Position numbers and translations under genes: made by a program. A stretch of 44,927 nt of DNA. Source: a virus. Location of the stretch: the IMG/VR virus record IMGVR_UViG_3300045240_000060, positions 1-44,927 of that record; one strand, 5' to 3'. The notes beneath the pieces were generated by a model. That model was not told the origin of the DNA. It searched no databases and saw only the letters and a program-made list of their open reading frames with translations. Positions 3,943-31,007 of the stretch are shown piece after piece; within the stretch, counting starts at the first letter, position 1, and each line of letters begins with the position of its first letter.

Positions 3943-5672
3943 TGGCTACGGAAGGCCCCGCCCCCATCCGGTGGCCGCTTTCGAGCTTCCCCGGGGCGTC
4001 GACGCAAGAGAGTGCCGGACGCCTCGTGAATTGTTACTCGGAACCCTTGGACGATCCGCAACTCCCCAGCGGGCCTAGCAAGGCGGTTTGGAGACGGTCT
4101 CCGGGGTTGAGTCAGTTCAACAGTGTAGCGACTGGCCAGACTGACTATCGAGGCGGTCTGATCGTTAACAATCTGAGTTACGAGGTGTGGAGTGGGAATC
4201 TTTCAACGGTTGATGCACTGGGAAACGTTACGAGCCTTGGGACGATTGGAGGAACGCTTAAGGTTTCTATCGCACGTAATCAGGCAGCCACTCCCAACGT
4301 CGTTATTGTCGACATATCAAATGGAGCATTTAGCTCTACTGGCGGCGGTGCACCGGCTGCATACAATGGCGGAGGTAATCTCCCCCAGCCCAACTCTGTA
4401 TGTTTCCAGGATGGATATTTCTTCTTCACCATCGGTGACGGGCGATGCTTCGCAAGCGGGCTAAATGCGCTGACGCAGAACAGCCTCACCTTCATCACAG
4501 CCCAGTCAAAGTCAGATGTGGCCCTGTTGAGAGGGATCGCATACTCCGGGCTTTTATTTCTGTTCACGACGGGCGGATGCGAAATCTGGCAGGACGCTGC
4601 GAATGTGGCTCCAGCGTTTCCATACAACCGCCTAACGACTATGCCGTATGGTCTGATTCAGGCCAATGCGATTGCTGGTTGGGAGACTGGGTTCGACAAT
4701 CTGATATGGGTCGCGCAAGACTTCGGGGTGTATCAACTGACGTGGGGTTCATTCCAGCCGACAAAGATTAGTCCTCCTGACTTGGACCGTTTCCTGGAAA
4801 CCAGGGCTAGCGCCGGTGATCTACTGGAGGCAGGTGTTTATGAGTTCGCAGGGAAAAAGTTCTGGTCATGCACGTCAAACAATGCGCTTACGACGTGGGA
4901 ATTCAACCTCTCTACTCAAAAGTGGAACGAACGAACAAGTTTACTTGCATCTAGCGGTGCACAGTCTCGATGGCGGGGAACAGGCGGTCACCCTGCGTTT
5001 GGCAAATGGCTCATGGGGGACGCTCAAAGCGGAAATCTGTTCTTCGTCGATGATACCAACTACACCGAGAATGGAGCCCCTCAGCTCTTTCGGATGGAAT
5101 CTGGGCCAGTTGACGAGTTCCCATTCCAAACCAGAATAGCCCGGGCCGACTTTGATTTCGTGTTTGGTGTCGGGCAAGCCGTCAATAATGTAACCTTGAC
5201 GGTCAAGGGAACCGCTTCCGGTACTGGCGGGGTAGTACGTCTACAAGTCAATAACACTGCCCAGGTTCTAACTGGCGATCAGGTCAATGTCTCTAGCGTT
5301 GGCGGTACGACGGAGGCCAACGGAACCTGGATGATCAACGTTATCGATGGGTTCCACATAGATTTGATCGGGACCGTGTTCGTCAATGCCTGGACCTCCG
5401 GGGGCATTGCGGTGGACGTGACTAATCCGGTCAATGAAATTGCTCCCGTTGTTGCGGTCTCCGTCTCTAAGGACGGCGGTAACAATTGGGGCAATCCGCT
5501 ATTGCGCGCGTTAGGGGAGCAGCAGAGATCGCGGCGTCAGCGGGTATCGGTCAAGAGCATGGGTCTTTCGGGGCCCATGGGGACACGCTGGCGGATTGAT
5601 ATAAGCGACGCGGTCTATACGGCCTTCCTTAAGGCAACACAGAGTAGTGACCCGCGCCAGGTCGGTGCGTGA
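3942..5672 (+). CDS. P22 gp10-like packaged DNA stabilisation protein
   Basis: A 576-aa protein matching the gp10 / phage-stabilise family in its opening: WPLSSFPG, then RLVNCYSEP (about residues 27-36), then a series of beta-propeller-like blades with W and Y residues. In P22, gp10 plugs the portal channel after packaging and connects the head to the tailspike machine. Residues about 420-490 look like an inserted small beta domain (TVKGTASGTGG to WTSGGIAV), of the kind often inserted in tail proteins. The C-terminal stretch is basic (RSRRQRVSVKSMG). Strong context: it is preceded by an adaptor and followed by tail genes. Confidence 0.85.
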   Translation: MATEGPAPIRWPLSSFPGASTQESAGRLVNCYSEPLDDPQLPSGPSKAVWRRSPGLSQFNSVATGQTDYRGGLIVNNLSYEVWSGNLSTVDALGNVTSLGTIGGTLKVSIARNQAATPNVVIVDISNGAFSSTGGGAPAAYNGGGNLPQPNSVCFQDGYFFFTIGDGRCFASGLNALTQNSLTFITAQSKSDVALLRGIAYSGLLFLFTTGGCEIWQDAANVAPAFPYNRLTTMPYGLIQANAIAGWETGFDNLIWVAQDFGVYQLTWGSFQPTKISPPDLDRFLETRASAGDLLEAGVYEFAGKKFWSCTSNNALTTWEFNLSTQKWNERTSLLASSGAQSRWRGTGGHPAFGKWLMGDAQSGNLFFVDDTNYTENGAPQLFRMESGPVDEFPFQTRIARADFDFVFGVGQAVNNVTLTVKGTASGTGGVVRLQVNNTAQVLTGDQVNVSSVGGTTEANGTWMINVIDGFHIDLIGTVFVNAWTSGGIAVDVTNPVNEIAPVVAVSVSKDGGNNWGNPLLRALGEQQRSRRQRVSVKSMGLSGPMGTRWRIDISDAVYTAFLKATQSSDPRQVGA

Positions 5673-13852: not shown

Positions 13853-14812
13853 ATGGTCAACATCGCGCACCTGATAGATGCCAACCAAAGACGCTGGGCG
13901 GCAATGCACTTCGATTCATCGCGGCTTCCTGAATTCGAGGCGGTATCCAAGCGGCTGATTGCCCCAAGTGCAAAGGCCCGCTACCAGCAAATCACCAAGG
14001 CGATCGGTGTCCCGTGGTTTGTGATTGCGGTCATCCACGAACGAGAGGCTAGTCAGAACTTTGGGGCACAACTAGGCCAGGGTGACCCACTAGGCCAGGT
14101 ATCTACCCATATCCCCAAGGGGCGCGGGCCGTTCTTTAATCATCCAAATGACCCACCGCTACAGGATGCCTTCTACCGCGGCGCACTGGATGCGCTGATT
14201 GATTGCCCCCCGCACGCCTCCTCCTGGCATGACTGGAGCGCCGGCGGCGCTCTTACGCTTCTGGAGCAATACAACGGGCTCGGCTACGCCGACATGGGCC
14301 TGGCCTCGCCCTACATCTGGGGCGGTACATCAGAACAGCAGCGCGGCAAATACGTTAGCGATGGTGTGTTTGATTCGAGTGTCATGGACACTCAGCTCGG
14401 CTGCGCTGGAATGCTGCGCTACATGGCCGGCCTGGATTCATCGATCACGTTTGGGCCCATCCCGGCGTTACCACCTCCGCCTATACCGGCACCGATACCC
14501 ATACCGATCCCAATTCCTGTACCCCTTCCAACTCCAACACCCGTGAGGCCCCCAGTGGCAACAATCCCCGCAGTGCAAGTAGATCTCTCAGGCGTCTGGA
14601 AACTCGTCCAGCCGTTCCTTCCGTCGATTCTCGACGGAGTAGCGGCGATATTCCCGCCGGCGGCTCCCTTCATTCTGGTGGCAAAGGGTGCAACCAATAT
14701 CATCGCGCAAGTACAGACCTCTGACGGAACCATCGGAGCCGCGGAGAAGATCATTGCCCAGGAACTCTATTCGGTTGCACTTGCTCTTAATCCGGCACTC
14801 AAGGGGACGTGA
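13853..14812 (+). CDS. Endolysin, lysozyme-family peptidoglycan hydrolase
   Basis: A 319-aa protein. Residues about 1-200 match the lysozyme-family phage proteins grouped as COG5526: KARYQQITKAIGVPWFVIAVIHERE supplies the candidate catalytic Glu (E63 or E65), followed by LGQGDPL and a G-G-A-L-T-L-L-E-Q-Y-N-G-x-G-Y segment. A striking Pro/Ile linker (about 200-235; PPPPIPAPIPIPIPIP) leads to a hydrophobic C-terminal region (PSILDGVAAIFPPAAPFILVAKGATNII type) that may associate with membrane or wall. There is no obvious signal peptide, so release would depend on the holin. Confidence 0.85.
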   Translation: MVNIAHLIDANQRRWAAMHFDSSRLPEFEAVSKRLIAPSAKARYQQITKAIGVPWFVIAVIHEREASQNFGAQLGQGDPLGQVSTHIPKGRGPFFNHPNDPPLQDAFYRGALDALIDCPPHASSWHDWSAGGALTLLEQYNGLGYADMGLASPYIWGGTSEQQRGKYVSDGVFDSSVMDTQLGCAGMLRYMAGLDSSITFGPIPALPPPPIPAPIPIPIPIPVPLPTPTPVRPPVATIPAVQVDLSGVWKLVQPFLPSILDGVAAIFPPAAPFILVAKGATNIIAQVQTSDGTIGAAEKIIAQELYSVALALNPALKGT

Positions 14813-17897: not shown

Positions 17898-18270
17898 AGT
17901 GAGCCTGGCGACACTTAGAGTCTATGGGGAAGTCTATCTAGCAAGTCCCTATACCAAGTATCCTAAGGGACATGATCAGGCATTCATGGATGTGGTAGCT
18001 CTTCAGGCGCGGTTGTTGGCTAACGATATCCTGGCCTACTCTCCGATCGTCCACGGCCACGCGGTGGCATGCTGCGCAAAGATGGATGTGTGTGATGATA
18101 TATGGATCAGGCTCAACCGAAAGATGCTACCACATTTCCCGGTGCTTCTAGTAGCGGAGATGGAGGGCTGGAAGGAATCGGCCGGAGTTACTGAAGAAAT
18201 TGCGACAATGCAAAAACTCGACAATAAAGTAATCTACTACATTAATCCGAATACTTTAGCCGTTCATTAA
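17869..18270 (+). CDS. DUF1937-like nucleoside-deoxyribosyltransferase-fold protein
   Basis: 133 aa from ATG 17869; an ATG at 17839 is also in frame. Its YLASPYTKYPKG motif, followed by a helix carrying ALQARLLANDILAYSPIVHGHAVA, is the signature of DUF1937 and related nucleoside 2-deoxyribosyltransferase-fold proteins. Family members handle nucleotides or nucleotide-derived ligands; the activity of phage forms is not established. The 3' end overlaps the converging minus-strand gene by 29 bp. Confidence 0.75.
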   Translation: MSEILQLKTKVSLATLRVYGEVYLASPYTKYPKGHDQAFMDVVALQARLLANDILAYSPIVHGHAVACCAKMDVCDDIWIRLNRKMLPHFPVLLVAEMEGWKESAGVTEEIATMQKLDNKVIYYINPNTLAVH

Positions 18271-18421
18271 TGATATTCTGTAGCCGCGTAAGCTCTGCCC
18301 CACGCCTTGCACATTCTGTGTGTGCTAGGTAGTAGTTGTTCTTATAATATTCAACGTCTTCCAATGCCACCTTCAACTCAGCTCGCAGCTTTTCAATTTC
18401 GTATTCGTTGTGGTTATCCAT
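18242..18421 (-). CDS. Coiled-coil array protein 1 (most distal)
   Basis: A 59-aa protein starting at ATG 18421 behind AGGGAAGG. It is a leucine-rich heptad helix (YEIEKLRAELKVALEDVEYYK), the last of seven tandem paralogue-like genes read leftward. It lacks the GEQGKG tail seen in most members. It converges with, and overlaps, the plus-strand DUF1937-like gene. The function is unknown; the family may form heteromeric coiled coils. Confidence 0.65.
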   Translation of the reverse strand: MDNHNEYEIEKLRAELKVALEDVEYYKNNYYLAHTECARRGAELTRLQNIINERLKYSD

Positions 18422-18440
18422 GGGGGCCTTCCCTGTACTA

Positions 18441-18470
18441 GTTATACGCAGTTCGAGGATTGCGTATAAC
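18441..18470. repeat. Perfect 10-bp inverted repeat with 10-nt spacer
   Basis: GTTATACGCA (18441-18450) and TGCGTATAAC (18461-18470) are exact reverse complements. They lie between coiled-coil genes 2 and 1. No T-run follows on either strand, so an operator or RNA-processing hairpin is more likely than a terminator. Confidence 0.7.
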
Positions 18471-18473
18471 CGG

Positions 18474-18713
18474 TCAACGCAAGCCGTAATTCTGCATCGC
18501 GACTTGGCGTAGTCGGTCGTTCTCGGCGCGCAGCTCCTCGACCTCTTGCTGGTGCCGGATTTGCTCGCAGGGTGTCCCATGCTGGTCATCAAGTAGTTTT
18601 ACTAGATGCGAAACCCGCGCCCTCAGCTGCTCAACCTCGGTGCGCAGTTTGACAATCTCAGCTTCGGCTTCATGGAATGCTTCCATCGCAGATATGCGTC
18701 CAATTCGTACCAT
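18474..18713 (-). CDS. Coiled-coil array protein 2
   Basis: 79 aa from ATG 18713, placed behind the strong AAGGGAAGGGATAG sequence that also encodes the tail and stop of the preceding gene. It has heptads of the form VKLRTEVEQLRARVSHLVKL and EVEELRAENDRLRQV, with a short Cys/His-containing break (GTPCEQIRHQQ). Upstream in-frame starts exist, but they would overlap the previous gene heavily. Confidence 0.65.
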   Translation of the reverse strand: MVRIGRISAMEAFHEAEAEIVKLRTEVEQLRARVSHLVKLLDDQHGTPCEQIRHQQEVEELRAENDRLRQVAMQNYGLR

Positions 18714-18717
18714 CGCC

Positions 18718-19092
18718 CTATCCCTTCCCTTGCTCGCGTAGGATTTTCTTAGCTTCGCAACAACATGGCTCGCATATCTTACCGCTGCCAGCGGCGTAGA
18801 TGCAGTAGGCAATCAGGATTTCAGCCTTCAGCCGCTCGACCTCGCCGCGCATCATCGAATTCTCAGCGTTTAGTTTGGATAAGATGTCGTGAGATTCAAG
18901 GAGAAGTCGAGCGTTGTCTGTGTGTAGCCGCTCTACCTCGCCGCGCAGTGCCATTATCTGGTCGGCAAGGTCGCGGGTTACGTGCTCATAATCCGAGCCA
19001 TACTTAGCTCGCAACCGCTCAACTTCGGTGCGCAGTTCATCATAATGCGCCCTGTCGATCATAATGCGCCCGGGGCCGTGCTTTATTTCCAT
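18718..19092 (-). CDS. Coiled-coil array protein 3 with Cys-rich tail
   Basis: A 124-aa protein. It has a DELRTEVERLRAKYG opening, then two further E-V-E-R-L heptad blocks. A cysteine cluster near the C-terminus (GKICEPCCCEAKK) could bind metal, and the tail is LREQGKG. The tail codons and TAG form the ribosome-binding region of gene 2. The upstream ribosome-binding site lies in the matching junction repeat. Confidence 0.7.
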   Translation of the reverse strand: MEIKHGPGRIMIDRAHYDELRTEVERLRAKYGSDYEHVTRDLADQIMALRGEVERLHTDNARLLLESHDILSKLNAENSMMRGEVERLKAEILIAYCIYAAGSGKICEPCCCEAKKILREQGKG

Positions 19093-19096
19093 CGTC

Positions 19097-19285
19097 CTAC
19101 CTCTTCCCTTGCTCGCCTAGCGTTCGTTTGGCCTGTGCTAGCATGTCGGGCGAGGTTGGCCATTTGACCAATAAGTTTAGAGACACGCGAAGCGCTTCCT
19201 TTTCAGCAAGCAGCCGCTCGTTCTCGGCGCGCAGCTTTTGAAAGTTGGCGTTATTAACCTCTGTTACGGTCAGTTTCACAGCCAT
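19097..19285 (-). CDS. Coiled-coil array protein 4
   Basis: 62 aa from ATG 19285 (MAVKLTVTEVNN). It has heptads NFQKLRAENERLLAEKEALRV and ends TLGEQGKR, with the same junction repeat as its stop. A TTG 132 bp further upstream is in frame but would add a non-family segment. Bases 19286-19455, between this gene and gene 5, hold no convincing gene. They are AT-rich in part and may contain a secondary leftward promoter. Confidence 0.6.
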   Translation of the reverse strand: MAVKLTVTEVNNANFQKLRAENERLLAEKEALRVSLNLLVKWPTSPDMLAQAKRTLGEQGKR

Positions 19286-19455
19286 GACGGGCCTATTTAG
19301 TTTATGAGTGCGTCTAACATATCTATCACCGACAATCGCCGCGCTTATAGTACCAGTGGCGCGGAGTTTTGAGCCTATAGAAAATAACGTTTTTATCAAA
19401 TTCCAACCGCGTGCCAAATAATCGGTACACCCACAGCGGGAGATATTGCATCACC

Positions 19456-19767
19456 CTATCCATTCCCTTGCTCTAGCGCCTTGCGGATCTCTGCGACGGC
19501 CTGTGATAATGGAGCATCTGATTTCCCTTGCTCGCCTAGCGCAGCTATGTGCTTAAGTCGTTCATCGCTCACGCCATGATTTCTAAGCTCTTGGATCAAA
19601 TCTGCGCAGTGGCAGGACACCTTGATATTCTCAGCCCTCAGCCGCTCGTTCTCGTTTAGGTACTCGTTAGCTACCTTCATATAGCTATCAAGGTCATGCT
19701 GCAGCGCCTCGATTTCGGCGATGGCATGTTCATAATCGTTTGGCTTATCGTCCCAAGTGCTCATCAT
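19456..19767 (-). CDS. Coiled-coil array protein 5 with an internal relic of the family tail
   Basis: A 103-aa protein with two adjacent start ATGs (19767, 19764) behind GGGTAAG. It has heptads IAEIEALQHDLDSYMKVANE and NENERLRAENIKV. At about residue 77 it reads ALGEQGKSDAP, an in-frame copy of the normal C-terminal tail without its stop. A further 20 residues follow, ending ALEQGNG and the usual junction repeat. This looks like a fusion or extension by repeat-mediated recombination. Confidence 0.7.
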   Translation of the reverse strand: MMSTWDDKPNDYEHAIAEIEALQHDLDSYMKVANEYLNENERLRAENIKVSCHCADLIQELRNHGVSDERLKHIAALGEQGKSDAPLSQAVAEIRKALEQGNG

Positions 19768-19866
19768 CTTACCCAGTGCTTACCCAGCAAAATCACAAAA
19801 GCCAATATATTGATTGTCCTACAGAATAAGCCAAATCTGACGTGACCAATCATCAAGACGGTTATC

Positions 19867-19902
19867 TATGCAGGGATATGCACACGTATGCAGGGATATG
19901 CA
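19867..19902. repeat. Four TATGCA boxes at exact 10-bp spacing
   Basis: TATGCA begins at 19867, 19877, 19887 and 19897. The larger unit TATGCAGGGATATGCA is present twice (19867-19882, 19887-19902). All boxes lie on one face of the helix, as expected for a cooperatively bound operator or iteron. The array is in the 186-bp gap between coiled-coil genes 6 and 5, and a GACTC (a GANTC site) lies at 19920-19924. Confidence 0.8.
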
Positions 19903-19953
19903 GATTTTTGATGGATATTGACTCATGACGCTAAAGCCCTTTGTAGAGTGGGG

Positions 19954-20253
19954 TCATGTTGGCTTACCCAGTGGCTTACCCGGCTCGTCTATGCCAAGTT
20001 CAAGCCTCGCCTGATCTACAGCGTAGTATCGGATATAGTCATCAACATCACCGACCACGTTTTTCAATAGCTCCCGCAGGCGGTCAACCTCAGCATCCAC
20101 CAAGCACTTAGCCTGATATACAGGCTCGCCTAGGGTAGTTGCCAGAACCTTTGTAGCGTGTAGCTCGGCTTCCAAAATCTCTACCTTCTCACGCAACCTT
20201 TCGTTCTCGGCGCGCAGCGTTTCAATCTTCTCGTCCTTATTCTCATACTTCAC
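19954..20253 (-). CDS. Coiled-coil array protein 6
   Basis: A 99-aa protein. It has a long leading coiled coil (KIETLRAENERLREKVEILE) and a second helical block (VDAEVDRLRELLKNVVGDV). Its C-terminus differs from the others: LGKPLGKPT, encoded by two copies of a GGGTAAGCC-type sequence resembling the GGGTAAG ribosome-binding site of gene 5. A different junction sequence therefore plays the same double role here. Confidence 0.7.
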   Translation of the reverse strand: MKYENKDEKIETLRAENERLREKVEILEAELHATKVLATTLGEPVYQAKCLVDAEVDRLRELLKNVVGDVDDYIRYYAVDQARLELGIDEPGKPLGKPT

Positions 20254-20257
20254 GGCA

Positions 20258-20623
20258 CTACCCCTTCCCTTGCTCGCCTAGCGCGGCATCGATTTCCTCG
20301 ATGATGTGACGCGGCACCGAAATATCGCTAGAGGCAAAATCGGCATAACCGCTTTCCTTGACCTTTTGTAGAAGCGCCCGCAGCCTCTCGACGTTGTTCA
20401 CATGCTCATTGGCTATTGCCATGTAGCGGTCAATGTCGTGCTGCAGACGCTTGACCTCGGCGCGCAGCGTCTCTAGGTGCCGTTCAACGTCATCGCATAA
20501 TTGGTTTTTGTCAGCTTTCAGCCTCTCAACCTCGGCGCGCAGGTCTCGCATCATTTCCACACACACTTGATGTGCGGCCCGCTCATCATCCAGCGCCGCT
20601 CGCATATCTGTCATCGCTGACAT
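20258..20623 (-). CDS. Coiled-coil array protein 7 (first of the array)
   Basis: 121 aa, the longest regular heptad member. Segments include RDLRAEVERLKADKNQL and LETLRAEVKRLQHDIDRYM, then a C-terminal globular-looking part (SDISVPRHIIEEIDAALGEQGKG). The segment HDIDRYMAIANEHVNNVERLRA closely parallels HDLDSYMKVANEYLNENERLRA in gene 5, direct evidence of paralogy. The ribosome-binding site is the junction repeat at the end of the helix-turn-helix gene. Confidence 0.72.
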   Translation of the reverse strand: MSAMTDMRAALDDERAAHQVCVEMMRDLRAEVERLKADKNQLCDDVERHLETLRAEVKRLQHDIDRYMAIANEHVNNVERLRALLQKVKESGYADFASSDISVPRHIIEEIDAALGEQGKG

Positions 20624-20626
20624 CGC

Positions 20627-20803
20627 CTATCCCTTCCCTTGCTCACCTAGTTTCAGCGCATCCCTGAGCCTTAGCCCGACGCAACGGTCGGAAATCCACA
20701 CGAACTTGTCCCGATAGTTTCGCCGCACCGTATCCACGTGCACGCCCATTAGCTCGGCGGCACGCTTAAGGGTAACGATGCGGTCTAGTTCAATGTCGGA
20801 CAT
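20627..20803 (-). CDS. 58-aa helix-turn-helix protein (AlpA/excisionase-like)
   Basis: The ATG at 20803 opens a 58-aa frame beginning MSDIELDRIVTLKRAAELMG, then VHVDTVRRNYRDKFVWISDR, and ending LKLGEQGKG. The TLKRAAELMGVHVDTVRR portion is a good helix-turn-helix of the MerR/AlpA/HTH_17 kind. Its tail belongs to the array family although its body does not. It begins one base after the previous stop. As a DNA-binding protein at the head of the array it is a candidate ligand for the TATGCA boxes. Confidence 0.7.
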   Translation of the reverse strand: MSDIELDRIVTLKRAAELMGVHVDTVRRNYRDKFVWISDRCVGLRLRDALKLGEQGKG

Positions 20804-22008: not shown

Positions 22009-22491
22009 TCAGGGATATGGGATTTCGTCGTCCATCTCATTGAGCCAACCGGCTTGACAAATAGTTCTGGCTTTAGAGATTGCCGCGGCGTCGAGCGGCA
22101 CCTTGCCTGCCGATATGAAGGCTTTCATGAGGGCACAGACGCACATATCAAGATTAGCGCCCCCGTTCAGTTGCTTAGCCATTGCCTTCTGAGTGCTTAC
22201 AGGCTGTTGCGCGGTGCGAACGGGTGCAGTTAGCGGTACTCCATCTACATCTCTTACTGCTTTAATCCACGGCGGGAAGTCTTTCCCCGGTTCGGTCGGT
22301 TGGTAATCAATCTGATATTGATTTCCTTCCTCCAAGATTTTCCAATCTTCTTCATGGGCCATATAAGAACCGCCCTCAGCAGCCTTAATAGTCCCGTATT
22401 TTTTCCCTCTTTTGTCCGTCTTCAATTCGTTACGAAAACGAACTGTGATTGTTGCTTTGGGAAGCTCAACCGCCATGCTCGGTATGACCAT
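22009..22491 (-). CDS. Early protein with OB-fold-like N-terminus
   Basis: 160 aa from ATG 22491, chosen for the GGAG ribosome-binding site eight bases upstream; ATG 22476 is an alternative. Residues about 6-75 (ATITVRFRNELK, RGKKYGTIKAAEGGSYMAHEED, YQIDYQ) resemble small OB-fold or single-strand-binding-like phage proteins. The C-terminal half has a QTP-type linker and a helical domain with a Cys pair (LDMCVCALMKAF). A DNA-binding role is inferred and not certain. Confidence 0.6.
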   Translation of the reverse strand: MVIPSMAVELPKATITVRFRNELKTDKRGKKYGTIKAAEGGSYMAHEEDWKILEEGNQYQIDYQPTEPGKDFPPWIKAVRDVDGVPLTAPVRTAQQPVSTQKAMAKQLNGGANLDMCVCALMKAFISAGKVPLDAAAISKARTICQAGWLNEMDDEIPYP

Positions 22492-22995: not shown

Positions 22996-23022
22996 GTTGC
23001 CATAATGGAAACCACTAGTCAA
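22996..23022 (-). promoter_or_regulatory. Leftward early promoter (PL-like) with operator OL1
   Basis: Read on the minus strand: TTGACT (23022-23017), four bases, then the 17-bp dyad GTTTCC-N5-GGCAAC (23012-22996). This is the same arrangement as the rightward element at 23442-23468. The dyad halves are exact apart from GTTTCC/GTTGCC. A -10 box is not obvious. Confidence 0.7.
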
Positions 23023-23029
23023 TAGCAAT

Positions 23030-23047
23030 GTAAGCCAGAACGGAAAC
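23030..23047. promoter_or_regulatory. Operator-like site OL2
   Basis: GTAAGCCAGAACGGAAAC is an 18-bp variant of the repressor dyad, closest to the site at 23416-23433. It lies between the leftward promoter and the end of the repressor gene. Confidence 0.5.
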
Positions 23048-23052
23048 TTTTT

Positions 23053-23424
23053 TCAGCTCTTCTTGGTGCGGGTAATTAGGTAATCGAGAAAGCGCTCGAT
23101 CTCAGGCTTCAAATCGGGGTGGTTTGCAATCCGATCATCAATCGAATCCGGGCGCGGCCGCTCATACATTTTAGCCGGTTCGATCTCTAAAACCTCTGCA
23201 ATGGCCTCTATCGCCATACTGCCAGGATCGCGGGCACCATTCTCCCAGCGGGATATGGTTCCCTTGGTCGTCTTAAGCTTGTAGGCGAGGTCTTCTTGGG
23301 TGAGCCCTGCCGCTTCCCGTCGCTCCCGAATAAACGCACGCCTGGGCTTCCTAGGGGCAATGCGGGTAGGTCCGCGTGGCATCCAGGAAGCGTAGTCACC
23401 AAACCAGGTAATGTCGTTAGCCAT
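23053..23424 (-). CDS. CI-like repressor, XRE-family helix-turn-helix
   Basis: A 123-aa protein. The helix-turn-helix spans about residues 30-68 (RRAFIRERREAAGLTQEDLA, KTTKGTISRWENGAR), then AIAEVLEIEPAKMY, typical of Cro/CI-type DNA-binding domains. A short C-terminal region follows (to TRTKKS) with no LexA-like protease domain, so induction by self-cleavage is unlikely. The gene lies between two pairs of similar dyads, the layout of lambda cI between OL and OR. Its start codon overlaps one of them, which suggests autoregulation. Confidence 0.82.
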   Translation of the reverse strand: MANDITWFGDYASWMPRGPTRIAPRKPRRAFIRERREAAGLTQEDLAYKLKTTKGTISRWENGARDPGSMAIEAIAEVLEIEPAKMYERPRPDSIDDRIANHPDLKPEIERFLDYLITRTKKS

Positions 23425-23433
23425 AGTGGAAAC
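23416..23433. promoter_or_regulatory. Operator-like site OR2, over the repressor start
   Basis: GTTAGCCATAGTGGAAAC overlaps the repressor ATG (23424-23422). Its 13-bp part CCATAGTGGAAAC is the inverted partner, with one mismatch, of the sequence at 23452-23464. Binding here would block translation or transcription start of the repressor. Confidence 0.65.
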
Positions 23434-23441
23434 CTTTGAGC

Positions 23442-23468
23442 TTGACTTTACGTTTCCGCTATGGCAAC
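23442..23468 (+). promoter_or_regulatory. Rightward promoter (PR-like) with operator OR1
   Basis: TTGACT (23442-23447), four bases, then GTTTCCGCTATGGCAAC (23452-23468), a 17-bp dyad. It is followed nine bases later by the Cro-like ATG. It mirrors the leftward element and lies in the 52-bp divergent intergenic region. Confidence 0.7.
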
Positions 23469-24343: not shown

Positions 24344-24805
24344 ATGGGTTGGTTGGAACACTGGTCAATGGCCGACACTGCTCAACTGATCGCTCTTCAC
24401 AAAGAGGGGCATTCGTTCGGTTCTATTGCGATTACAATGCGCAAAACCCGAAACTCGATTGCGGGCAAGCTTGGGCGGTTGGGCAGACTTAAAACGAGAG
24501 ACCCGCGAAGCTATCAATGGCATTATTGCGTCCAACCGCGAGTGCGCAACCCCCGCTGTCGCTGGCCGCGGAAACCGCGTGGTCGCCCCCGTGTATTCAC
24601 CCTTCCCCTGAATACACCAGAACCGATCGGGTGCCCCGATTGGCTGGGGCTCACGATATTCGAGCTGACTAACAAAACCTGCCGGTGGCCATCGGGTCAG
24701 GGCCCGTATTTCTTCTGCGGGGCGCCCCAAGCCGATCTCGAGGAGCGCCGTCCCTACTGCCCCTATCACGATCGGATCGCCCACACTTACTCGAGGGCGA
24801 CATGA
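24344..24805 (+). CDS. gcrA: GcrA-family cell-cycle regulator homologue
   Basis: A 153-aa protein. The N-terminal domain (residues about 8-48: MADTAQLIALHKEGHSFGSI then TRNSIAGKLGRLGRL) matches the GcrA DNA-binding domain, including the R-N-x-x-x-G-K-L-x-R-L-G signature. The C-terminal domain has CRWPSGQGPYFFCG and PYCPYHDRIAH, the sigma-70-interacting half with conserved Cys and His. Host GcrA acts at GANTC-methylated promoters with RNA polymerase. A phage copy could redirect host transcription or activate phage promoters. The middle linker is unusually Arg/Pro-rich (RKPRGRPRVF, AT-hook-like). The ribosome-binding site is GGAGTGAGG. Confidence 0.87.
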   Translation: MGWLEHWSMADTAQLIALHKEGHSFGSIAITMRKTRNSIAGKLGRLGRLKTRDPRSYQWHYCVQPRVRNPRCRWPRKPRGRPRVFTLPLNTPEPIGCPDWLGLTIFELTNKTCRWPSGQGPYFFCGAPQADLEERRPYCPYHDRIAHTYSRAT

Positions 24806-29231: not shown

Positions 29232-29575
29232 TGTTCAAGCCTGGTCAAAGTGGCAATCCCTCTGGGGGAAACGCTCACAAGCGTCTCTCCCAGAGGCGTG
29301 CCAAAAACTTTGCGGAAGCTGCTGCAAAGCAAGGCATCATGCCACTTGAGTACATGCTTCAAATTCTTCGGGATGAGAAGGCGCCCAAGATGATGCGCTA
29401 CATGGCGGCCAAGGATGCGGCGCCCTATCTGCATCCGCGTCTTGCCCAAATCGATCACAACGTTGAAAAGAACGTTATCTATCACATTGCAGACAAGCCG
29501 ATGACACTAGATGAATGGGCAAAAGAGTTTGCCGGTGTGGACGCCCCAACCGGGACCACAAACAGCGTTAATTAA
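29231..29575 (+). CDS. terS: Terminase small subunit candidate (DUF5681-like)
   Basis: 114 aa. It begins MFKPGQSGNPSGGN, the F-x-x-G-x-S-G-N-P signature of DUF5681 proteins that lie beside large terminases. A helical region (LEYMLQILRDEKAPKMMRYM, AAKDAAPYLHPRL) follows, also typical of phage small terminase-like proteins. The last 65 bp overlap the large terminase gene. It would recognise phage DNA for packaging. Confidence 0.72.
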   Translation: MFKPGQSGNPSGGNAHKRLSQRRAKNFAEAAAKQGIMPLEYMLQILRDEKAPKMMRYMAAKDAAPYLHPRLAQIDHNVEKNVIYHIADKPMTLDEWAKEFAGVDAPTGTTNSVN

Positions 29576-31007
29576 GTGCGACTACCCCGAAGTGTTCTAT
29601 GGTGGGGCTCGAGGTGGCGGAAAAACTGATGGCGTTCTGGGTAAGTGGGCCCTCAAAGAGCGAAGATACGGCCAGCACTTCAACGCCATCATGTTCCGCC
29701 GAACTACCGTCTCTGCTGTTGATGCAATCGAACGATCTAAAGAGATATATGGACCGCTCGGCGGCCGATTTGTCGAGTCACCCACGCCCAAATGGCGTAT
29801 GCCAAACGGCGGACGTGTTACCTTTGCCCACCTTGAATCGATCTCGGATGCGGATGAGTATCAAGGCCGCAACGTTACCGATGCATGGATTGAGGAAGTC
29901 GGAACTTATTCTGATCCCATTGCTATTAAGCGGCTATTTGGCGTGCTGCGCTCTGCTCATGGCGTGCCTGTTCAGCTTATTCTTACTGGCAATCCCGGTG
30001 GCGTTGGGCAGCATTGGGTGGCTGCTAAGTATCAGATTATACCGTTCCCTTCGAAGCCTAAGCTCATCAATACAACGCTGGAAAATGGCGATATTCACCG
30101 TATTGCCGTTATCCCGTCCCGCATCACCGACAATAAAATCCTCCTAGACCGCGATCCCATGTACGTCAGCCGGCTTCAGTTGGTTGGTAAGCAGCTCTCA
30201 AAAGCTTGGATAGACGGTGACTGGACAGCGATCGAGGGCGCATACTTCGACTGTTGGAGTGAGGCAAGGCATGTCATCGCGCCGTTCGAAATCCCGCAAG
30301 ACTGGATCAGATTCAGGTCAGCAGACTGGGGCTCAAATTCTCCGTTTTCCATCGGATGGTGGGCAGTCGTCCAAGACGACCACACCGTTGATAGAATCGG
30401 AGACTTCGCAGTGGCTGGAGTTGACGGAAGCCGAGAAAGCGGAGCTACACGAGTTTTGCCAAGGGGTGCAATCGTCCGTTATCGCGAGTGGTATGGTGCC
30501 CAAGGAGGCAAACTCACAGCGGACGCTGTTGGCCAAGGTATCGCGGATCGAGAATCTGATGATCCAAAACTGTCTGATGCTGTCCTCGATCCTTCAACAT
30601 TTAAGCAAGATGGTGGACCGTCTATCGCCGAGAGAATAAACGACGTTCTAATCAAGAAGAAGATGATGCCCTTTCGGGAGGCGGATAATAAGCGTGTTCC
30701 GTCGACCAACGATCGCCGCGGGGCCCTTTCCGGCTGGAATGAAATGCGCCAGCGTTTGGTGGGAGGCATGATTGCGTGTTTTAATACCTGCGTGGATTCC
30801 ATTCGAACCATCCCCGTCCTACAGCATGACATCAAGAGAGCGGAAGACCTTGATACGAATTCTGAAGACCATGCGGCGGACGAATGGCGCTACGCCTGTA
30901 TGTCGAGGCCCTGGCTCAAGTCGAAGCCGATCGAGGAAGAATTCAAGTTCGAAGACTACCGGGTGAATAAGGATGACCCAGTCACCGACAGCTTCAAGAC
31001 CATTTGA
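29511..31007 (+). CDS. terL: Terminase large subunit
   Basis: A 498-aa protein. It shows Walker A GGARGGGKT (31-39), Walker B AWIEEVG (125-131), coupling motif LILTGNPGG (157-164) and the nuclease domain opening SADWGSNSPFS (first acidic residue D272), with a late D-H-A-A-D-E-W-R-Y-A motif for the last acidic residues. It drives ATP-dependent packaging and cuts concatemers. With a P22-like portal downstream, headful packaging and a circularly permuted genome are likely, in keeping with the circular assembly. Confidence 0.93.
   Translation: MNGQKSLPVWTPQPGPQTALIKCDYPEVFYGGARGGGKTDGVLGKWALKERRYGQHFNAIMFRRTTVSAVDAIERSKEIYGPLGGRFVESPTPKWRMPNGGRVTFAHLESISDADEYQGRNVTDAWIEEVGTYSDPIAIKRLFGVLRSAHGVPVQLILTGNPGGVGQHWVAAKYQIIPFPSKPKLINTTLENGDIHRIAVIPSRITDNKILLDRDPMYVSRLQLVGKQLSKAWIDGDWTAIEGAYFDCWSEARHVIAPFEIPQDWIRFRSADWGSNSPFSIGWWAVVQDDHTVDRIGDFAVAGVDGSRESGATRVLPRGAIVRYREWYGAQGGKLTADAVGQGIADRESDDPKLSDAVLDPSTFKQDGGPSIAERINDVLIKKKMMPFREADNKRVPSTNDRRGALSGWNEMRQRLVGGMIACFNTCVDSIRTIPVLQHDIKRAEDLDTNSEDHAADEWRYACMSRPWLKSKPIEEEFKFEDYRVNKDDPVTDSFKTI

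Follow-up and report, generated by a model that had tools for sequence, protein, structure and literature searches.

We report here an array of seven small coiled-coil genes in a phage genome and propose that it is probably a locally amplified, recombining set of accessory genes with portable joints, situated at the promoter-distal end of a leftward operon. The array belongs to the virus record IMGVR_UViG_3300045240_000060 from IMG/VR, whose whole 44,927-nt stretch was analysed and is called the window below. Comparison with two phages, a 25-kb IMG/VR record (L003, G001) and a 49-kb one (L006, G002), indicates that gene pieces have been swapped, fused and copied.

Reading of the open reading frames (ORFs) on the minus strand at 18242-20623 gave seven ORFs for small proteins with heptads of the L-R-x-E-x-E-R-L or LRAExERL type. 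The original prediction had placed seven such genes strictly one after another up to position 20803. The seven genes are present, but the row is interrupted twice, by a gap of about 187 bp between genes 6 and 5 and by a non-coiled ORF of 41 amino acids (aa) between genes 5 and 4; moreover, 20627-20803 is an eighth gene, which encodes a separate small helix-turn-helix (HTH) protein free of heptads and lies outside the coiled-coil set. This HTH gene gave weak HTH_23, HTH_59 and MerR-like matches. The likeliest start of gene 4 is at 19285, and the longer ORF extends into upstream sequence.

The genes of the array are connected by a joint repeat of about 25 nt, which occurs six times; it spans the C-terminal codons and the stop codon of the upstream gene together with the Shine-Dalgarno sequence of the downstream one. 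As CTAGGCGAGCAAGGGAAGGGATAGG, it terminates the HTH gene and genes 7, 5, 4 and 3. Its 18-mer core GAGCAAGGGAAGGGATAG has five matches in the window at up to three mismatches, against 0.04 expected. Gene 5 also contains an internal, in-frame former joint without its stop codon, so that this gene reads as two fused units. On the start side, the joint AAGGATAGACGATG (at most one mismatch) was found upstream of all three coiled-coil genes of L006 and of the first one of L003, and at these four sites only among the sequences checked; together with GCGCTAGGCGAGCAAGG, it may serve as a marker sequence for recognising relatives of the array. In the window and in L003, the conserved joint stretch reaches upstream into the coding sequence (GCGCTAGGCGAGCA). 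The exact joint pattern had no match in the genome contigs searched.

The relatives, which carry such genes in positions comparable to that of the array, show how it varies. L006 is collinear with the window around it, with a metallophosphoesterase gene, a deoxyribosyltransferase-like gene, the array, the HTH gene, an HNH gene and the gene at 22009; the flanking genes are conserved and the array itself is different, there being three coiled-coil genes where the window has seven. One of the three, g2c, is a single gene that fuses the block of window gene 2 (71% identity over 41 aa) and, after it, the block of gene 6 (47% over 36 aa). L003 carries two coiled-coil genes immediately after its integrase gene, each with an exact joint at its end, and the second of them (g1b) possesses a Cys-rich tail as in window gene 3; joints shared with the window adjoin other genes in this phage. 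The HTH protein of the window is 81% identical to its L006 counterpart over 52 residues, the homology stopping where GEQGKG begins, and beyond this point L006 has a Cys-containing extension versus the joint repeat in the window. As judged by this comparison, the divergence point at the start of the joint repeat is a visible breakpoint. Shared blocks, repeated joints, gene fusion between relatives and a gene number of seven, three and two all speak for the paralogy, duplication and recombination that had been predicted, and the seven genes do not form an invariant set among the related phages.

DNA comparison with annotated phages and plasmids yielded no match, nor did tblastn searches of phages with the gene-3, gene-7, block-A and L010 proteins. 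Four candidates were rejected as relatives: L004 and L005 each have a single joint-like match, located in unrelated sequence, the match in L026 is a coincidence within a very long ORF resembling a tape-measure gene, and L028 has nothing but a generic HTH in common with the window.

The second repeat is the 24-nt heptad-coding stretch CTGCGCGCCGAGNNCGAGCGGCTG, present in nine copies in the window, all on the coding strand and all in the array, and in three copies in the L003 phage; elsewhere in both records there was none, and a reversed control pattern gave none either. To assess kinship between proteins, the shared C-terminal tail was stripped and 7-residue blocks were permuted 1000 times for each of 66 pairs (w denotes window genes). 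None of the 1000 permutations matched the observed score for w2/g2c, w5/w7, w6/g2c and w3/g1a, and one did so for w3/g1b. Genes 5 and 7 had been suggested to be paralogous through a longer block, and this is borne out: the block QHDxDxYMxxANExxNxxERLRA scored 111 versus a permuted mean of 52. For most of the strongly matching pairs, the DNA match was better than in every one, or almost every one, of 100 synonymous re-encodings made with the codon usage of the phage. Since re-encoding rarely reproduces the DNA matches, identical heptads in the proteins are insufficient to explain them. Joint and heptad repeat alike agree more closely at the DNA level than re-encoded proteins would. The blocks and repeats therefore carry the kinship past generic heptads.

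Most of the shared blocks have changed mainly at synonymous sites. The proportions of synonymous (pS) and non-synonymous (pN) differences, which are rough values for such short blocks, were 0.53 and 0.19 for w2/g2c, 0.69 and 0.06 for w6/g2c, 0.70 and 0.22 for w5/w7, and 0.54 and 0.13 for the HTH gene, giving pN/pS of about 0.36, 0.09 and 0.31 for the three coiled-coil pairs, respectively. The proteins thus appear to be under constraint, and the synonymous excess argues against pure decay.

Gene 2 contains a 12-residue motif, GTPCEQIRHQQE, which is invariant in five phages or prophages (the window, L006, L008, L009 and L010, a contig of a Boseaceae bacterium), with many synonymous differences in its coding DNA across the five. 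In L008 and L010, the genes with the GTPCEQIRHQQE block close a rightward gene run and stand opposite an endolysin gene (in L010, the coiled-coil gene is at 5020-5493, in what is probably a prophage). The endolysin gene of L006 lies beyond the metallophosphoesterase gene, on its far side, and in L009 the block is found in a different gene setting. In several phages, the spot occupied by the array thus appears, from gene order, to lie where an operon ends, opposite the lysis side. In two samples of about 400 genomes, one from the order and one from the class to which the Boseaceae bacterium belongs, this bacterium alone had the block, and the motif string was absent from the literature searched. 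The predicted structure of the gene 2 protein has two helices with a break at the GT of the motif (mean predicted local distance difference test score 80, predicted template modelling score 0.40), and a PDB search with it returned one designed helical protein and nothing else. The motif is the best experimental handle on the array and gives access to a conserved element of phage proteins that had not been described.

The operon begins near a divergent CI/Cro-like pair, a 123-aa HTH protein on the minus strand and a 64-aa Cro-like HTH protein on the plus strand (the latter by reading), with an HNH gene lying upstream of the array; the array is promoter-distal in a leftward operon adjoining this switch (23002-23462). 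Between the CI-like and Cro-like genes there is an inverted repeat, ATAGTGGAAAC...GTTTCCGCTAT (23423-23462). A half-site with one mismatch is located at 23002-23012, just past the CI-like gene, and is possibly an operator of a leftward promoter, although single half-site matches are not above chance. Promoter and terminator scans gave no more matches than chance, and Rfam gave none. The metallophosphoesterase and deoxyribosyltransferase-like genes are transcribed toward the array. Farther along that run, the gene at 13853-14812 is 61% identical over its first ~200 residues to a gene of the L003 phage; it looks lysozyme-like, but PHROGs and Pfam assign no family to it. A homologue of the cell-cycle regulator GcrA (24344-24805; PF07750, above the cut-off) fits an alphaproteobacterial host, and the hosts of the phage are probably alphaproteobacteria. 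The terminase large subunit (29511-31007) has its nearest relative in the cyanobacterial phage Pam5 (60%) and is distant from other annotated phages. A targeted search of the window record for a PF00589 integrase found none. The perfect inverted repeat between genes 2 and 1 might be an operator or a hairpin. A gap of about 200 bp is bracketed by pairs of GGGTAAGC both in L006 (7037-7056, 7244-7263) and, by eye, in the window (~19963-19983 at the end of gene 6, ~19770-19790 before gene 5); the window scan did not recover both window copies, and this possible second repeat is therefore not counted.

Features of the coiled-coil array and its surroundings (positions in the window)
Feature	Coordinates	Strand	Remarks
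Coiled-coil gene 1	18242..18421	-	59 aa, ATG at 18421; last gene of the operon; no family above Pfam cut-off
Perfect 10-bp inverted repeat GTTATACGCA-N10-TGCGTATAAC	18441..18470	.	Separates genes 2 and 1; occurs once in the window
Coiled-coil gene 2	18474..18713	-	79 aa; contains GTPCEQIRHQQE; predicted two helices, break at G46-T47
Nine CTGCGCGCCGAGNNCGAGCGGCTG copies	18510..20542 (range)	-	Starts 18510, 18624, 18829, 18925, 19012, 19211, 20194, 20444, 20519
Joint repeat copy	18717..18741	-	Gene 3 end/gene 2 start
Coiled-coil gene 3	18718..19092	-	124 aa; three heptad repeats; Cys-rich tail shared with L003 g1b
Joint repeat copy	19096..19120	-	Gene 4 end/gene 3 start
Coiled-coil gene 4	19097..19285	-	62 aa counted from the likely ATG
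41-aa non-coiled ORF	19326..19451	-	Immediately follows the joint of gene 5; read from sequence
Degenerate joint repeat copy	19455..19479	-	Gene 5 end; 7 mismatches to the 25-mer (one codon missing)
Coiled-coil gene 5	19456..19767	-	103 aa; apparent two-unit fusion; block shared with gene 7
Former joint inside gene 5	19515..19539	-	In frame, stop codon lost; 5 mismatches to the 25-mer (sixth copy)
Two exact TATGCAGGGATATGCA copies	19867..19902	-	Within the gap between genes 6 and 5 (repeat family D14)
Coiled-coil gene 6	19954..20253	-	99 aa; block AKCLVDAEVxRLR shared with L006 g2c
Joint repeat copy	20257..20281	-	Gene 7 end/gene 6 start
Coiled-coil gene 7	20258..20623	-	121 aa; predicted 94-residue helix and short C-terminal helix
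Joint repeat copy	20626..20650	-	HTH gene end/gene 7 start
Small HTH gene	20627..20803	-	C-terminus is the joint repeat in place of the ending of the L006 relative

That unrelated small genes have converged by chance on generic heptads is highly improbable, and for at least genes 2, 3, 5, 6 and 7 it is refuted: the Pfam and PHROG matches are indeed those of generic coiled coils, the Pfam ones being under the cut-offs, but the joint repeat, the DNA match of the heptad codons and the blocks shared by w5/w7, w3/g1b and w2/g2c stand against convergence. Nor do we find it plausible, though somewhat less far-fetched, that the array is a decaying, slippage-prone heptad-coding stretch devoid of function and shaped by neutral repeat turnover. 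The former joint fused inside gene 5, the eroded look of gene 4 and of the gap between genes 6 and 5, and the weak constraint on the tail shared by w3 and g1b would agree with such decay; yet all seven frames are open, lie on one strand and have joints, the shared blocks show a synonymous excess, and GTPCEQIRHQQE has stayed invariant in five phages or prophages.

Two other explanations, both unlikely but each better placed than neutral turnover, concern the role of the repeats. The joint may be mainly an expression element of stop codon, Shine-Dalgarno sequence and start codon, ensuring equal coupled translation, with gene kinship being secondary. TAG and a purine-rich stretch do stand right before the ATG in three phages, also before the non-coiled ORF; however, the conserved stretch enters the upstream coding sequence, an extension superfluous for ribosome binding, the cluster K consensus described below is not in the array, and the block swaps are left unexplained. 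Alternatively, the joint and the heptad DNA may be kept as recombination substrates of a selected diversification system that yields new coiled-coil binders against changing targets of the host or of rival phages. This reading spells out the earlier suggestion of interchangeable coiled-coil partners, possibly inhibitors matched to such targets, a function that the results do not support. It agrees with repeats conserved beyond the need of the protein, with block fusion and varying gene number, and with purifying selection on the blocks. Against it stand the few relatives and the absence of target, anti-host or anti-defence evidence, the PADLOC defence models giving only weak coiled-coil matches (E 0.001 or worse) and no convincing one. 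Moreover, the joint does two jobs, being also the Shine-Dalgarno and stop element, so its conservation needs no role in recombination and by itself is no proof of selection for it. A shade less probable still is a dedicated coiled-coil assortment locus, in which selection would keep the repeats because they favour recombination; helical blocks, each with its expression signals, would be newly combined and tried on changing host partners.

We thus favour local amplification and recombination of an accessory gene set. Most likely, the products act through binding to other proteins, either early in infection or during lysogeny. Two short DNA repeats, the joint and the LRAExERL-coding stretch, would define the array; each joint forms the end of one gene, stop codon included, and provides the following gene with its Shine-Dalgarno sequence. 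Unequal or homeologous recombination between repeat copies could then duplicate, delete, fuse or swap segments, such that gene number and block combinations vary among phages while the frame and the translational coupling through the joint would be kept, and small alpha-helical, probably coiled-coil proteins would be held under selection.

Several points weigh against this explanation. The recombination events are deduced from sequence comparison, and no recombination gene was recognised in the window. Homology can hardly be built on heptads, and with p limited to 0.001 by 1000 permutations, the results for 66 pairs are at the margin of significance after Bonferroni correction. The w6/g2c pair does not exceed the re-encoding control, and an array-specific codon bias could inflate this test, in which genome-wide codon usage served as the control. 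The w3/g1b tail is weakly constrained (pS 0.52, pN 0.39). Array joints were found in only two relatives (L003 and L006). Three phages are too few to count the events or to give them a direction, and either the seven-gene or the three-gene arrangement may have come first.

Sites of gene exchange in phages usually have no recognisable sequence; here the joints are visible, repeated and common to several phages, and a fusion and a truncation mark the breakpoints. The array illustrates how phages may generate new small accessory genes. In the literature searched, no comparable array of coiled-coil genes was described. The proteins share heptad-rich helical sequence with generic phage coiled coils (PHROGs 1816, 3671 and 35596; Pfam ZapB and bZIP_2), but all Pfam matches are under the curated cut-offs (ZapB, PF06005, at best 22.7 bits for gene 7 versus 31.5; bZIP_2, PF07716, at best 21.1 bits for gene 2 versus 22.3), and the PHROG matches are weak and common to unrelated coiled coils.

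Cluster K mycobacteriophages contain repeated start-associated sequences (SAS/ESAS) with the consensus GGGATAGGAGCCC, the SAS genes mostly having upstream gaps of more than 50 bp (PMC3203893). Like these, the array joint is short and repeated, has a Shine-Dalgarno-like core and lies in the non-structural half of the genome, a few bases upstream of start codons; GGGATAGG occurs in both elements. Unlike them, the array element includes the upstream stop codon, and GGGATAGGAGCCC at up to two mismatches matches the window just once, at a site distant from the array, against 1.1 matches expected by chance; no relationship is claimed. The array resembles the short conserved boundary sequences at which exchange in phage mosaicism has been proposed to occur (PMC3029335). 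As there, short conserved DNA lies at the gene joints, differing neighbours are joined at the conserved sequence in relatives (the HTH gene in the window and L006; the joints of L003), and exchange has apparently taken place at this sequence, as the HTH truncation suggests. In contrast to such boundaries, the array joint is repeated within one genome, among tandem paralogues, and is part of the coding sequence, with a second repeat located inside the genes.

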